Source of the DNA: Homoserinimonas sedimenticola
GTDB lineage: Bacteria > Actinomycetota > Actinomycetes > Actinomycetales > Microbacteriaceae
Reading direction: 5' to 3'
Assembly: GCF_026094475.1 (NCBI RefSeq)
Contig: NZ_JAPELL010000001.1
Coordinates: 1,264,326 to 1,328,325 of the forward strand
Length of the DNA stretch: 64,000 nucleotides
Shown here in pieces: positions 56,833 through 62,732 of this stretch (position 1 is its first letter; every line of letters starts with the position of its first letter). The position numbers were made by a program, and so were the translations under genes. Below the pieces are notes generated by a model. The model was not told the DNA's origin, searched no databases, and saw only the letters and a list, made by a program, of their open reading frames with translations.

Positions 56833-58413
56833 TTACCCGAGCATCCTGATCGAGGTGGGCGTGATGTAACCGGGCTGCTCGAAGACGGCCCCGTTCATGT
56901 ACGTCGGGAGGATGTTGTCGGCGAGCGGCGCCACGTCGACGCGCTCGATGAGCTCCTTCTCCGCCTGCTGCCAGTAGTCGCAGGTCTCCTCAGGAGAGGC
57001 CGTCATGGCCTGCTGAGCAAGCGCCTCGTACTCCGGGTTCTCGACGAACATGAAATTGTAGCCGCCGTTGTCGGGGGTCTCCCCGCCGTAGAACATGTGC
57101 TGGATGAGCGGGCCGCCACTCGAGATCTGAATCCAGCCCGTGTCCCAGTCGAAGGTCGAGTAGAGCTGCTCCGACCACGCTGCGGCGTCGTTCGCCCGAA
57201 GCTCGGTCGTGATTCCGAGCTCGTTCCACATCTCCTGCACGAGTTCGGCGGCGGGAGCGTGCGTGGCCGTGCCCGCATCGTAGATGAAGACGATCTCGAG
57301 GGGCTCACCGTTCTTCTCGCGCAGCCCGTTCGAGCCGAGTTCCCAGCCGGCCTCGTCGAGGAGCTCACCTGCGCGCTCAACGTCGTACTCGGGCAGCTCG
57401 AGGGGCTCGTCTGTCACACACAGCAGTGGCGTCTTCGTGACGAGCGAGATCGGCTCCATGGGGGAACCATCCGCGATCACCTCAGCGGCGGCATTCTTGT
57501 CGATAGCCCGGACCAGAGCCTCACGCACCAGCGGGTCGGATGTCGGCCGGTCTTCCCGCTCGTTGAAGAGCATCTCGCCGACGGGGTTGCGGATGCCGAC
57601 GTACTCCAGCCCAGCGCCGTCGAGACGGGCGCGATCGGCACCCAGCACGACGCCAGCATTGATGTCGCCAGACAGCAGCAGGTTGGCCGTCGTGCTCTCC
57701 TGCGGGATGATGCGGATCTCGATCGTGTCGGGCAGACCGACCGTCTCGCTCGTGACATCCTGCGGACCCCACGTGTAGTCGTCACGCTTCTGGAAGGTGT
57801 AGGTCGACTGCGCCTCGATCGACTCGAGCGCGAAGAGACCCGTGCCGTTGGTCGTGTCCTGCAAGCTCTCCGGGTCGTCGAGGCCAGCCTGGCACACCAT
57901 CTCGATGAGGCCCATGTTCTCGAGGAGGAACGGGTCGTTCGCGGGAACCATCACCGTGACGTCGTTGCCCTCCGCGACCGCCGTGGTGCCCTCGGGAACG
58001 ACCGAGCCGAAGTAGAAGCTCGCGTTCTCCGCATTGCCGTGGAAGTTGAAGTTCGCGGCGGCCACCTCGGCCGTGAAGTCACTGCCGTCGGAACAGGTGA
58101 TGCCGTCGCGAAGAGTGAAGGTCACCTCCGTGCCCGTCGCGTCCCAGCTCTCGGCAAGCCACGGCACGATCTCGCCGTCGGGCGTCGCGTACACCATCGC
58201 CTCATACGCGTAGTTGATCATCTCCCGCTCGTCGGGGGCGACCGCCGACATGGGGATGAGCGAGCCGATCTCGCTTGCGGTGGCCTTGATGAAGGTGCCG
58301 CCGGAGACGTACTCGCCCGTCTCGCCGGCGTCACTCGAGCTCGCGCACGACGCCATCGTCATGGCGAGGACGACGGCACCGGCGACCGCCGGTACTGCTG
58401 TGCTGCGTTTCAT
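56833..58413 (-). CDS. Peptide/nickel-type ABC substrate-binding lipoprotein (DppA type)
   Basis: The 526-residue product is a family 5 solute-binding protein. Its signal ends TMASC, giving lipidated Cys23. Typical segments are LAESWDATGTEVTFTLRDGI, the disulfide-bearing loop with the cysteine of ITCSDGSDF, and LLDEAGWELGSNGLREKNG. It selects the substrate for import; this family takes peptides, opines, glycosides and other solutes, so the ligand cannot be named. It lies 33 nt after the HyuA-like gene. Confidence 0.92.
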   Translation of the reverse strand: MKRSTAVPAVAGAVVLAMTMASCASSSDAGETGEYVSGGTFIKATASEIGSLIPMSAVAPDEREMINYAYEAMVYATPDGEIVPWLAESWDATGTEVTFTLRDGITCSDGSDFTAEVAAANFNFHGNAENASFYFGSVVPEGTTAVAEGNDVTVMVPANDPFLLENMGLIEMVCQAGLDDPESLQDTTNGTGLFALESIEAQSTYTFQKRDDYTWGPQDVTSETVGLPDTIEIRIIPQESTTANLLLSGDINAGVVLGADRARLDGAGLEYVGIRNPVGEMLFNEREDRPTSDPLVREALVRAIDKNAAAEVIADGSPMEPISLVTKTPLLCVTDEPLELPEYDVERAGELLDEAGWELGSNGLREKNGEPLEIVFIYDAGTATHAPAAELVQEMWNELGITTELRANDAAAWSEQLYSTFDWDTGWIQISSGGPLIQHMFYGGETPDNGGYNFMFVENPEYEALAQQAMTASPEETCDYWQQAEKELIERVDVAPLADNILPTYMNGAVFEQPGYITPTSIRMLG

Positions 58414-58446: not shown

Positions 58447-60045
58447 TCACTGCGTGGTGCTGTGTGCCGTCACCGGCTGGTCGGCACTGAGCCTCGTGAG
58501 GGGCCCAGCAGCCTTGACCGAGACCTTCACCGTCGGGCGGGCGGTGTAGGAAACGGATGTCTCGAGCACGTCGACGACCGCAACGTGGAGGGGGTCGGCG
58601 CCCGCCTGGATGGCCTTCTCGATGGCCGCCTTGGACGCCGCTTCGATCGCGGCCTCGCGCTCCTCGAAGTCGCCGAGCTGGTCGGCCCGGCCGCTCGCGA
58701 GCGACATCGCCGCGCCGACCGCATTTGCGACATCACCATCGGAGGGGCGGATGACAGCGGATGCTCCCACCAGGCTGTCGGGCACGAGGAAGCCGCCGCC
58801 ACCCACCACGACGAGCGGCAGGTCCGCGCGGCCCAGGGAGAGCCGCTCGACGGCATCCTCGAGGTCGCGGTGGGACTTCTCGAGTGCAGCCTGGAGGGCG
58901 GTCCGGGTTGCGGCGGGGACGGCCGGCATGCTGCGACCGCCGATCGCCGTGCCGGCGAGAGCCGCGGCATCCGTCAGCGTGGGGGTCGAGCCGCCAAAGA
59001 GGAGCGCCTCGTCCGCGATGCGGTAGCCGACCGAAAGGGGGCCCACCGAGCCGGTCGCCGGATCGACGATCGTGCCGCCACCGATGCCGAGGCTCAGGAT
59101 GTCAGGCATGCGGAAGTTGGTGCGCACGCCACCGATCTCGCGGGGCAGCGTCGACTCGCGAGGGAAGCCGCCGACCAGCACGCCGAGATCACTCGTGGTG
59201 CCGCCGACATCGATCACGATCGCGTTGTCGACACCAGAGAGGTACGCGGCCCCTCGGATGGAGTTGGCAGGGCCCGAGCCGATCGTGAGCACGGGGTAGC
59301 GCGCCGCGAAGTCAAGCGTCATGAGGGTGCCATCGTTCTGAGCGAAGAACGTGACCGCGTCGAGGCCCTGCTCGGCGACGACCGTCTCGAGCGCGAGGGT
59401 GACATCCCGGGCGACGCCATACAGGGCGGCGTTGATGATCGTCGCGTTCTCACGCTCGACGAGGCCTATCGCGCCGATGTCCTGACTGAGTGAGATCGGG
59501 GTGCCGAGCCCGATGTGGTCCTGCACGAGGGAGGCGACCTCGAGCTCCTGCTCGGGGAACGAGGGGCTGAAGATACCGCACACCGCGACCGCGTCGAAGG
59601 CACCGTCGAGGCTGTCGATGAAGCGCAGCACGCCGTCGCGATCGAGCGGGGAGATGGGTGTGCCGTCGACCATGTGGCCGCCGCCCAGCATTGTCGAGCC
59701 AGCGAGCACACTGCTGCGGAGATCCCCCGGCCAATCCGTGACGGGAGGCAGCTCCGTGGCGGCGGGCGCCCCAAGGCGCACCATCGCGACGCGGCCGAGG
59801 CCCCGCCGGCTCACGATCGCGTTGGTCGCGTGGGTCGTGCCGAGCATGACGCGAGACACCCGGTCGCGGTCGGCACCGATCGCGTCGAGAACGGCAGCCA
59901 CACCCGCACGGATTCCCCCCGTGACATCCGTCGTCGTCGGCTGCTTCGTGCGAGCGATCACAGTGCCCGCACCATCGATGACAACCGCATCCGTGTTGGT
60001 GCCGCCGACATCGACACCGATCGAGAGATCCCGTGCCTCGCTCAT
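58447..60045 (-). CDS. HyuA-like hydantoinase/oxoprolinase family protein
   Basis: The ATG at 60045 overlaps the DUF917 stop by four bases; the long upstream open frame lies in the DUF917 gene and is not used. The 532-residue product begins LSIGVDVGGTNTDAVVIDGA, an ASKHA ATPase motif, and has IVIDVGGTTSDLGVLVGG mid-protein, both typical of the ATP-dependent hydantoinase/oxoprolinase A subunit. No B subunit gene is present; here the partner is the DUF917 protein, as is known for such pairs. Likely opens a hydantoin- or lactam-type ring. Confidence 0.87.
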   Translation of the reverse strand: MSEARDLSIGVDVGGTNTDAVVIDGAGTVIARTKQPTTTDVTGGIRAGVAAVLDAIGADRDRVSRVMLGTTHATNAIVSRRGLGRVAMVRLGAPAATELPPVTDWPGDLRSSVLAGSTMLGGGHMVDGTPISPLDRDGVLRFIDSLDGAFDAVAVCGIFSPSFPEQELEVASLVQDHIGLGTPISLSQDIGAIGLVERENATIINAALYGVARDVTLALETVVAEQGLDAVTFFAQNDGTLMTLDFAARYPVLTIGSGPANSIRGAAYLSGVDNAIVIDVGGTTSDLGVLVGGFPRESTLPREIGGVRTNFRMPDILSLGIGGGTIVDPATGSVGPLSVGYRIADEALLFGGSTPTLTDAAALAGTAIGGRSMPAVPAATRTALQAALEKSHRDLEDAVERLSLGRADLPLVVVGGGGFLVPDSLVGASAVIRPSDGDVANAVGAAMSLASGRADQLGDFEEREAAIEAASKAAIEKAIQAGADPLHVAVVDVLETSVSYTARPTVKVSVKAAGPLTRLSADQPVTAHSTTQ

Positions 60046-61160
60046 CGCGCCACCGCCTCTCCGCCGAAGGGCACATAGGGGAGGTCGTAGCCGAAGGCCT
60101 TCGGCCCCGCCAGTTCGAGACCGCGCTCCGTGCGCCACAGCGGATCGCAGGCCCAGGCGAGCACCGCGACACGCTGGCCGAAACGGAGCATCTCGGTGGA
60201 GATCGCGTGGCCCGTCTCCCCGTCGACGATCGTCACGAGGTCGGGCACGCTGACGATGACCTCGCCGTCCTCGATCACCACGAGGTTCTCGTTCTGCAGC
60301 TCGATGCGCTGCAGGCGGTCGCGGTCGCTGCCCGTGCCGGCGATCGTCACGGAGCCCCGCACGAAACCGCCATCCGTGTGACGGGCGACATCGATGACCT
60401 TGCCGTTGATGAGGACGGATGCCCCGAGCTCGTTCGCGACTCCGGCGACAGGCTCGGACGAGGAGAGAAGTGCGTGGCCCACCCGAATCGCCGTGCTGAC
60501 GGTGCCCTCGATGACGGCACCCTTGGCCGTCTCGGCCGTAAGCAGGTAGTGCGCGCCGAGGCAGAGTCCACCGCTCGCGACCGTGATGGCGCGGGCGTGG
60601 CGCTCGAGCCACGAGAGGTCGATCGTCTTCAGCACGGCAAGGTTGCCGACGACATCGCTCATGATGGCGAACTCGCAGGGCACCCCCGCGACATTCATCG
60701 CGATCATGGTCGCCTCGGGGAAGGCGCGGCCCATGCCGTCGGCGTCGAGGATCGCGACACCGAGGCGGGCGGCCCAGCCGACGGGCCCCACACCGTTGCT
60801 GCCGCCGATCTCGGCGGCCATGAGCGCCGTGATCCTGCGCCCGGCGACACGCTCGGCCTCGTCGAGCAGCGCCTGCACCTGGTGCGTCGAGGGCAGCATC
60901 TCGATACCGACGGTCGGGGCGCCGATGCCCGACATGACGATGACGGCGTCGTCCGGGCCGAGGTCGTCCACGGCGAGGAGCGGCACGGGGCCGTGCTGCG
61001 TGATCGCCGTGGCGACGCCGCGCTCAGCCGTGTAGACGGCCCCTCCACCGCCCGTGCCGAAGATCGCCGCGCCGGCCGCAAGAGCGGGGACGTCGTCAAC
61101 CGTGACGGAGGTGACGCGCGTCGGGGCTGGGGACGAGATCGGAGGTGCCTGTTGTGCCAT
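60042..61160 (-). CDS. DUF917-family protein (S-methylthiohydantoin desulfurase type)
   Basis: The 372-residue product has the DUF917 landmarks AAIFGTGGGGAVYTAERG near residue 30, AAEIGGSNGVGPVGWAARLG and the C-terminal LAWACDPLWRTERGLELAGP and FGYDLPYVPF. Members are often next to or fused with HyuA-like proteins, and some act on thiohydantoins. Here it is the first gene of the operon and overlaps the HyuA-like gene. TAGTGT 6 nt before the ATG suggests a leaderless mRNA. Confidence 0.87.
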   Translation of the reverse strand: MAQQAPPISSPAPTRVTSVTVDDVPALAAGAAIFGTGGGGAVYTAERGVATAITQHGPVPLLAVDDLGPDDAVIVMSGIGAPTVGIEMLPSTHQVQALLDEAERVAGRRITALMAAEIGGSNGVGPVGWAARLGVAILDADGMGRAFPEATMIAMNVAGVPCEFAIMSDVVGNLAVLKTIDLSWLERHARAITVASGGLCLGAHYLLTAETAKGAVIEGTVSTAIRVGHALLSSSEPVAGVANELGASVLINGKVIDVARHTDGGFVRGSVTIAGTGSDRDRLQRIELQNENLVVIEDGEVIVSVPDLVTIVDGETGHAISTEMLRFGQRVAVLAWACDPLWRTERGLELAGPKAFGYDLPYVPFGGEAVAR

Positions 61161-61166
61161 GTTCCG

Positions 61167-61195
61167 ACACTAGGGATCCCGGAATGCCCGAACAA
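61167..61195 (-). promoter_or_regulatory. Leaderless promoter of the DUF917 operon
   Basis: On the minus strand TTGTTC (61190-61195) and TAGTGT (61167-61172) are separated by exactly 17 bp. The -10 ends 6 nt before the ATG at 61160, so transcription should start at or next to the start codon. Confidence 0.6.
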
Positions 61196-61223
61196 TGTGC
61201 CCCTACGCCAGTGTTTGGGTCAG

Positions 61224-61244
61224 TATTGTGCTGTGAGCACAATA
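61224..61244. promoter_or_regulatory. Palindromic operator centred on the PucR start codon
   Basis: TATTGTGCT (61224-61232) and AGCACAATA (61236-61244) are perfect 9-bp inverted arms. The 3-bp centre, 61233-61235, is the GTG start codon of the regulator gene. The site is 29 bp from the -35 box of the divergent operon and would control both directions. No Shine-Dalgarno precedes the GTG. Confidence 0.8.
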
Positions 61245-62732
61245 TCTTCGGCCGAGATCTTCACCCAGTCGACCCGCTTGGGCCTCAACCACATTGCGGG
61301 TCCGCTCGCGGGCACGCCCATCACCCGAGTCGACGTCGTCGAGCTCGACGCCCTCGATGCCCTCGCGGAAGGCACCCTCGCGGTCATCGCCGCCACGACG
61401 GATCCCGCCCCCTATCGCATCGACATCGCCATTCGACAGGCGAGCGCGCGAGGCCTCGGCGGGCTGCTCTTCACGACGGGCATCCGGCTCACCGAGACCG
61501 CCGTCGTGCTCGCCACGCGCGGCGGAATGCCCGTCTTCACCGCCCCCGGCGTCAAACCCTCCGAGCTTGCCGTGACGATCGACCGCATCCTCGTCGGCGG
61601 GGCCTCGGAGAGCATGACTCGCTCCGCCTACGCGATCGAACGGGCTACGGAAGCCGCCGCCGAGGCGGAGGAGGCGCCCATCGAGGCCATCCTCGCCGCC
61701 GCGGGCGACGCCCTCGGCCACCGGCTGACCGTTGACGAGAGCGCACCCGTCGCCTGGAGCGACAGCGACGCCGTGTGCGTGGGAGAGGTGCCCATCGGCC
61801 GCCTCGTCGCCGACGGAGACGACCCCGCCGTGGCGATCGCGCTGCCCGTCATCGCCTCGATCGTCTCCCGCTCCATCTACCGGCAGATGCGTGACCGCCA
61901 GGCACCCCGGCAGTCCCGCGCCGACCTCATCGTCGAACTCGTGCTCGCCGAATCCTCCCGCGTTGAGGGCTTCACCGGCCAGGCGGCCGCGCTCGGCCTG
62001 CCGCTCCAGCTCTCCCACGTCGTGGGCTGGATCAAGCCCACCCACCGTGCCGACTCCACCCGCCGCCCGCCGCACAGCGTCGAACCCGCACTCGAACTCT
62101 TCGCGCTGGAGCTCGTCGATCATCGCGACGAGATGTGGCACGTGGCCTTCATCCGCGACGACATCCTCATCGTCTCGACCGAGGAGCATGGGGCGGGGCA
62201 CCACCAGCGACGGCTGCGCGAGGTCGCGACCGAGATCCGCGATCACGCCCGCACCCTCGCCGGTGAGTCCTGGGAGTACACGCTGGGCCTCGGCACTCCC
62301 CAGTCGGGCGCCTCCGGGCTGCGGCAGTCCGCCGCCGAAGCGCGCGTCGCCGCGGAGTCAGCGATTGCGGCAGGGCGCGCCGGTGCTGTCGAGGTGACGG
62401 ATGTCACGGGCCTCCGCCGCGTGCTGCTCGACTTCTACGCCTCCCCCATCAGCCGCAACCTGCTCGACGACGTGCTGCATCCGCTCGACGCCCTCGGCCG
62501 GGAACGCTCCACAACGGCCGTGCGCACCCTGCTCGCCTACCTCAGCCACCGCAACTCCCTCGCCCAGGCCGGGCGGGAGCTCACACTGCATCCGAATGCG
62601 GTCGCGTATCGGCTCAAGCGCATCCGCGAGGCGCTGCAGGTCGACCTCGACGACCCCGACACCCGCTTCGCGGTGGAGCTGGCCTGCCGCGTGCGACTAC
62701 TCGGGGCAAGCCGGTCCTCCGCGCCGGACTAG
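61233..62732 (+). CDS. PucR-family transcriptional regulator
   Basis: The start GTG 61233 gives 499 residues; the open frame continues far upstream but antisense to the DUF917 gene. The N-terminal 130 residues resemble the PucR-type sensor domain (LAGTPITRVDVVELDALDAL, RGLGGLLFTTGI). The C-terminal helix-turn-helix is LAQAGRELTLHPNAVAYRLKRIRE, typical of PucR/CdaR regulators. It is divergent from the DUF917-HyuA-transport operon, so it probably senses a substrate of that system and regulates it and itself. Confidence 0.88.
   Translation: MSTISSAEIFTQSTRLGLNHIAGPLAGTPITRVDVVELDALDALAEGTLAVIAATTDPAPYRIDIAIRQASARGLGGLLFTTGIRLTETAVVLATRGGMPVFTAPGVKPSELAVTIDRILVGGASESMTRSAYAIERATEAAAEAEEAPIEAILAAAGDALGHRLTVDESAPVAWSDSDAVCVGEVPIGRLVADGDDPAVAIALPVIASIVSRSIYRQMRDRQAPRQSRADLIVELVLAESSRVEGFTGQAAALGLPLQLSHVVGWIKPTHRADSTRRPPHSVEPALELFALELVDHRDEMWHVAFIRDDILIVSTEEHGAGHHQRRLREVATEIRDHARTLAGESWEYTLGLGTPQSGASGLRQSAAEARVAAESAIAAGRAGAVEVTDVTGLRRVLLDFYASPISRNLLDDVLHPLDALGRERSTTAVRTLLAYLSHRNSLAQAGRELTLHPNAVAYRLKRIREALQVDLDDPDTRFAVELACRVRLLGASRSSAPD

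Follow-up and report, generated by a model that had tools for sequence, protein, structure and literature searches.

A putative operator pair between a probably leaderless regulator gene and a divergent S-Me-THD operon in Homoserinimonas sedimenticola

In the 64,000-nucleotide stretch of Homoserinimonas sedimenticola DNA analysed here (the window), the GTG codon that opens a regulator gene lies in the middle of a perfect inverted repeat. This locus raises the question of what such a repeat does at a start codon, and whether it acts on the regulator gene, on the operon that diverges from it, or on both. The features of the region are as follows.

56833–58413, reverse strand: solute-binding protein SBP_bac_5 of an ABC transporter, identified by family search
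58447–60081, reverse strand: hydantoinase/oxoprolinase-type gene, likely in the same operon as the next; the limits, and with them the provisional start, are those of the stretch put to the family search
60042–61160, reverse strand: S-Me-THD (DUF917) gene, the likely target, identified by family search; beside the regulator gene and divergent from it in 29/29 aligned ortholog loci
61167–61172, reverse strand: TAGTGT, the −10 hexamer for the divergent gene, 6 nt ahead of the ATG
61190–61195, reverse strand: TTGTTC, a −35-like hexamer for the divergent gene, at a spacing of 17 nt from the −10
61196–61210, no strand: proposed operator O1, TGTGC cccta CGCCA, degenerate in the window; the second-best place for the motif, 31 bp from O2
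61221–61226, forward strand: −10-like hexamer of the regulator gene, CAGTAT, 6 nt before the GTG, inferred from layout
61224–61244, no strand: perfect 21-bp palindrome, containing the core of proposed operator O2, TGTGC-N5-GCACA, at 61227–61241
61233–62732, forward strand: regulator gene, 499 amino acids, with GGDEF_2 and PucR C-terminal HTH_30 domains by family search; 29 orthologs aligned at its start

The regulator gene, its neighbours and its start codon

The GTG at 61233–61235 opens a 499-residue frame, in which the PucR C-terminal helix-turn-helix HTH_30 (PF13556) was found at residues 430–487 (E 2.1e-19, 69.5 bits, cut-off 27), together with a GGDEF-like domain, GGDEF_2 (PF17853; E 1.5e-08, 35.3 bits, cut-off 24.5). 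The latter domain occurs in part of the regulators that carry the PucR C-terminal helix-turn-helix. The N-terminal domain PF07905 was absent from the matches to the window protein at E values up to 10, and the regulator is therefore not classed as a PF07905 member; among three orthologs tested, PF07905 appeared in L008 alone, at E 0.0017 and 19.1 bits versus a cut-off of 33.5. A previous reading of the sequence alone had called the gene PucR-type; the definition of the PucR family in PMC7652997 rests on PF07905. Against the NCBIfam models for AdeR, CdaR and PmfR proper the protein scored 31.5 of 700, 21.3 of 612 and 16.8 of 800 bits, all far below the curated cut-offs. Downstream in the divergent direction, a permease and an M20-like enzyme were named from their reading frames rather than by family search. 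DUF917 proteins are termed likely hydantoinases in PMC11055893, which describes them as lacking experimental characterisation.

Matches to the regulator were found in 21/398 genomes of the family and 10/396 of the order (E ≤ 1e-30), in 9/394 of the class (E ≤ 1e-60), and in 1/5 of the genus, the own genome being included in each count and the four samples overlapping. The single genus match is the own genome, and since none of the other four carries the gene (0/4), a nearer comparison is impossible; a scan of genome contigs confirmed no relative. The absence of the gene from these four genomes, and its patchy occurrence in the family (21/398), suggests gain or loss of the whole cluster.

Thirty start regions were aligned, comprising the window and 29 orthologs whose start codons were picked by eye, partly by the −10 layout. 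Left out were L030 (a second piece of the L032 gene), the remote homologs L031 and L057 (32–35% identity), and L053, which lies at a contig end. A nonredundant set of 22 rows was obtained by removing eight hand-picked near copies (L009–L012, L014, L019, L021 and L024). The sites in L053 read TGTGT/GTCCA and TGTGC/ACACA, and no operator pair was seen by eye in L031 or L057. The L057 gene (about 34% identity) is also divergent from an S-Me-THD gene, and it has an AGGAGG-like ribosome site.

Because the regulator frame is open far upstream within the window (60033–62732, forward strand, antisense to the S-Me-THD gene), the GTG start rests on comparison, and a wrong start could be chosen by automatic gene calling. 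In one set, an in-frame stop occurs no more than about 100 nt from the aligned region in 19/20 orthologs; two orthologs, L032 and L056, have an in-frame stop at −12 and no alternative start after it. On this comparison the GTG at 61233 is likely to be the regulator start codon.

The layout of both genes points to promoters placed immediately before their start codons. On the regulator side, a −10-like hexamer whose second letter is A and whose sixth is T stands 6 nt ahead of the start codon in 26/30 rows; in the remaining 4, a reading of the rows puts the distance at 7 nt. These counts are partly circular because the ortholog starts were partly chosen by that layout. On the divergent side, TANNNT precedes the ATG by 6 nt in 26/30 rows and by 7 nt in the other four (also read from the rows), and a −35 starting TTG stands at the exact 17-nt spacing in 19/30. 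A scan for the sigma-70 consensus found no promoter. The regulator and the divergent S-Me-THD gene are probably both leaderless, and the earlier proposal of leaderless messages in both directions fits the promoter layout of the two genes. The divergent gene begins ATGGCACAA (window 61152–61160, reverse strand), and the same letters open the regulator gene in some orthologs.

A palindrome over the start codon and a second copy of its motif

The inverted repeat reads TATTGTGCT-GTG-AGCACAATA at 61224–61244, with arms of 9 nt that are 100% complementary and 3 nt between them, exactly as had been noticed from the sequence: the GTG is the 3-bp centre of a perfect 9-bp repeat. Such repeats are not rare in a stretch of this size: perfect 9-bp inverted repeats with 0–10 nt between the arms gave 14 hits (nested ones included, at 6 places) in the 64-kb window and 4–19 hits in six shuffles of it. 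Within the 93 bp from 61161 to 61253, a 9-bp inverted repeat was present in just 10/3000 dinucleotide shuffles. With up to three mismatches allowed, the longer pattern ATTGTGCTNNNAGCACAAT has a single match in the window, against a mean of 0.05 in shuffles; in the 2.84-Mb genome it matches this locus and one place with three mismatches, and the reversed control pattern also matches one. The genome thus holds no second good copy of the longer pattern, and the exact 15-bp core TGTGC-N5-GCACA occurs at 3 places in it, compared with 4 for the reversed control. The exact 17-bp core TTGTGC-N5-GCACAA was found at one further place, in one genome, among 20 of the 30 aligned genomes. We considered a wider regulon for the motif and rejected it, the search of the own genome having given no support.

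Comparison of the regions upstream of the orthologs shows what is kept. The elements are present throughout in degenerate form, and the perfect 17-bp core occurs in 1/30 rows, which is the window itself. The exact centring on the start codon, to which the sequence-only reading gave weight, is peculiar to the window. There the 5-bp centre of O2 reads T-GTG-A, whereas orthologs have, for example, TC-ATG: in 29/29 of them the start codon comes one base later, so that the start in the window is shifted one base upstream within O2. Exact centring as a functional rule was rejected on this ground. The window row is anchored one base differently in the alignment so that O2 aligns, which is this same one-base shift.

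The motif TGTGC-N5-GCACA was then scored along the 22 nonredundant rows, counting matches out of 10. The mean is 9.00 over the regulator start (O2; 8.95 without the window) and 7.09 exactly 31 bp upstream of O2 (O1; 7.10 without the window), and the next best place reaches 4.73 (4.76 without the window), the rows being related, so that their counts are not independent. When all 1024 palindromic 5-mers were scored in the same way with N5, TGTGC was the best on the first peak (O2) and on the second (O1), a ranking that uses the same related rows and is therefore not a probability. The exact 15-bp O2 core is found in 7/30 rows, the window included, and changes in one half-site of O2 occur without a matching change in the other. 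O1 is poor in the window, where its right half matches at 2 of 5 positions.

O2 overlies the −10 region and start codon of the regulator gene, and O1 adjoins the −35 box of the divergent gene. The palindrome had been placed close to that −35 box; it is 28 bp away, and it is the weaker copy O1, previously unmentioned, that adjoins it. Across the 22 nonredundant rows, two inverted repeats lie between the regulator and its divergent target, upstream of the target −35 (O1 being degenerate in the window). The sequence itself shows the motif in two copies, how far apart they lie, that they are conserved and which genes surround them. The divergent start and O2 are separated by a constant distance in 24/30 rows and by one base more or less in the remaining 6, and the spacing of divergent start, O1 and O2 is kept in the window despite its shifted start codon. 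Since the spacing is constant while the start codon shifts, the operator pair appears to be tied to the divergent promoter and not to the start codon.

Between O1 and O2 (about 61211–61219 in the window) there is a further conserved stretch, in which ortholog positions −21 to −18 are G, A, A and T in 15, 14, 16 and 15 of 19 rows; exact GAGAAT is present in 8/30 rows and fits neither an operator nor a −10 or −35 box.

Rare codons are used under O2. Alanine at codon 2 is written GCA in 13/15 nonredundant rows (14/21 among all rows) and glutamine at codon 3 is written CAA in 10/19 nonredundant rows, against a background, in 800 kb of three genomes, of 6–10% GCA among alanine codons and 5–8% for CAA. 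At other leaderless-like starts in the same 800 kb, GCA was used for a codon-2 alanine in 0/11 cases, a small sample obtained with a simple start rule. GCACAA is retained in the window even though it is read there in another frame, as STI and not AQ. Judging from this codon usage, the translated half of O2 is under constraint at the DNA level.

A model for the operator pair, and its rivals

We propose, with a probability of about 0.62, that the regulator acts through two operators, activating the divergent operon and repressing transcription of its own gene. The 21-bp palindrome would be the distal operator (O2) of the encoded regulator, and the weaker O1, 31 bp or about three helical turns off, would be a second operator adjoining the −35 of the S-Me-THD/hydantoinase operon. 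We picture the regulator, probably oligomeric, as bound to O1 and O2 along the same face of the helix, from where it would aid RNA polymerase at the divergent promoter, probably together with a hydantoin-like effector; the same binding would repress transcription of the regulator gene. What we infer in this scheme is binding by the encoded protein, activation, autorepression, the oligomer, the effector and the leaderless starts. Measured from the divergent start, the centres of O1 (spanning −36 to −50) and O2 fall at −43 and −74, positions that resemble activator geometry and are close to those of GabR of Corynebacterium glutamicum. Autorepression is proposed because O2 covers the regulator −10, the presumed transcription start and the first codons, and the start codon would come to lie inside an operator because the gene is leaderless. 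Several observations weigh against the model: the poor O1 of the window, the exact O2 core in 7/30 rows, the half-site changes that lack a counterpart, the GAAT-like stretch, for which it offers no role, the lack of a PF07905 match in the window protein, and the ATG inside O1 from which 23/29 orthologs could begin translation.

The regulator had been suggested to block either its own translation start or its own transcription. The site does overlap both the regulator promoter and the start codon, which suits a transcriptional effect. That binding should block translation directly is unlikely, given that the left arm of the palindrome would be missing from an mRNA beginning at the GTG. Translational control by an mRNA hairpin was rejected on the same anatomy, the left arm being outside the leaderless transcript.

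The same two sites could serve repression of both promoters, with O1 blocking the divergent −35, O2 blocking the regulator −10 and start, and an effector releasing the protein. The places of O1 beside the −35 and of O2 over the regulator −10 and start agree with this, and the account of the family in PMC7652997 has Bacillus subtilis PucR as both activator and repressor. O1 lies at −36 to −50, however, just upstream of the −35 hexamer and not over it, and the other characterised members named in that account are activators; we consider dual repression unlikely, though it is the strongest of the rivals. Somewhat less probable is the reading that no operator exists, the conserved letters reflecting nothing more than a pair of leaderless promoters set back to back, together with N-terminal codons, and the perfect palindrome of the window being a chance match. 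Much of the conserved sequence does coincide with the −10, the −35 and the start codons, the perfect 17-bp core is confined to 1/30 rows, and a repeat of this kind does arise in 10/3000 shuffles of the region. What speaks for operators instead is that the motif occurs twice, 31 bp apart, and is the best of 1024 on both peaks, and that the rare GCA and CAA codons are in use. We know of no promoter-related reason for TGTGC to stand between a −10 and a start codon.

A global nitrogen or carbon regulator, or some other protein, might bind TGTGC-N5-GCACA here in place of the encoded regulator, our candidate for binding the motif. A global regulator is expected to have many sites, yet the exact 15-bp core is no more frequent in this genome (3 places) than its reversed control (4), and the longer pattern is well matched at this locus only; this makes another protein improbable. 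Least probable of all is translation of the regulator from an ATG inside O1, 13 codons upstream, in which case O1 would be conserved as a start codon and O2 would be intragenic. This ATG, at −39, is in frame in 29/29 orthologs and the frame from it is open in 23/29, so that a longer protein may be made from it in some orthologs. A stop follows in the other 6/29, and likewise in L053, and in the window the ATG falls in another frame. That these letters are kept even where translation could not begin from them argues for a function at the DNA level.

Returning to the activating, self-repressing operator pair, a further and tentative step, for which we put the odds somewhat below even, is that selection accounts for the position of the distal operator, across the transcription start and opening codons of an activator gene without a leader. 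The second and third codons (often Ala-Gln, as GCA CAA or GCA CAG) would then be kept for DNA binding and not for the protein, and the start codon and N-terminus would evolve under the operator.

Comparison with known systems

The closest parallel is GabR of C. glutamicum, as described in PMC7652997. GabR likewise has a PucR-kind C-terminal helix-turn-helix, is a local regulator divergent from its catabolic target (gabTDP), and has two inverted repeats between the genes, at least one of which overlaps a possible promoter of gabR. These 21-bp repeats lie just upstream of the −35 of gabT, which GabR activates; its binding region extends from −87 to −23 relative to the start of the target, and binding is strong only when both repeats are present. 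GabR differs in lacking the GGDEF-like domain that the window regulator has, in the 5′ ends of gabR mRNA, which lie 59 and 11 bp upstream of the start codon, and in its pathway. A further difference is that gabR mRNA rose 4-fold with GABA and did not fall, which by analogy counts against the autorepression part of our model.

Three other systems share parts of the arrangement. AcuR (TetR family), from the leaderless acuR-acuI-dddL operon of Rhodobacter sphaeroides, has a leaderless regulator gene with an inverted-repeat operator over its own promoter, which it represses; it differs in its family, in having one operator and in having its targets in the same operon, not divergent (PMC3017554). 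CrtR of C. glutamicum, a MarR-type regulator, is actinobacterial, is reported to have a leaderless transcript, is divergent from its target and is negatively autoregulated about 2-fold, but it represses the target, belongs to another family, and the site shown to matter is a TTAA motif (PMC5401885). The leaderless regulator genes cI and cro of phage PY54 diverge from each other around an intervening operator; their products are phage repressors, and Cro has just one operator and is presumed not to act as its own repressor (PMC4488713).

The sequence-only reading had taken the locus for a compact autoregulatory switch of a kind not known to have been described. The general kind is known, as GabR (PMC7652997) and AcuR (PMC3017554) make clear, whereas this operator pair was not found described: titles and abstracts in the open-licence PMC literature gave, among the matches listed, no description of the pair or of a regulator of S-Me-THD operons. 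For leaderless together with PucR, the GabR paper (PMC7652997) was the sole match in that literature. We therefore regard the arrangement as a tidy form of a familiar self-controlling, divergent, two-operator switch, probably autoregulated, whose unusual look would follow from the leaderless nature of the regulator gene.

The analysis provides a testable motif, two copies of TGTGC-N5-GCACA 31 bp apart, for actinobacterial regulators tied to S-Me-THD/hydantoinase operons. It also offers an example of how an operator may determine both the sequence around a start codon and the first few codons of a gene transcribed without a leader; in the window strain, the start codon would have moved by one base inside an operator whose position is fixed by the divergent promoter.
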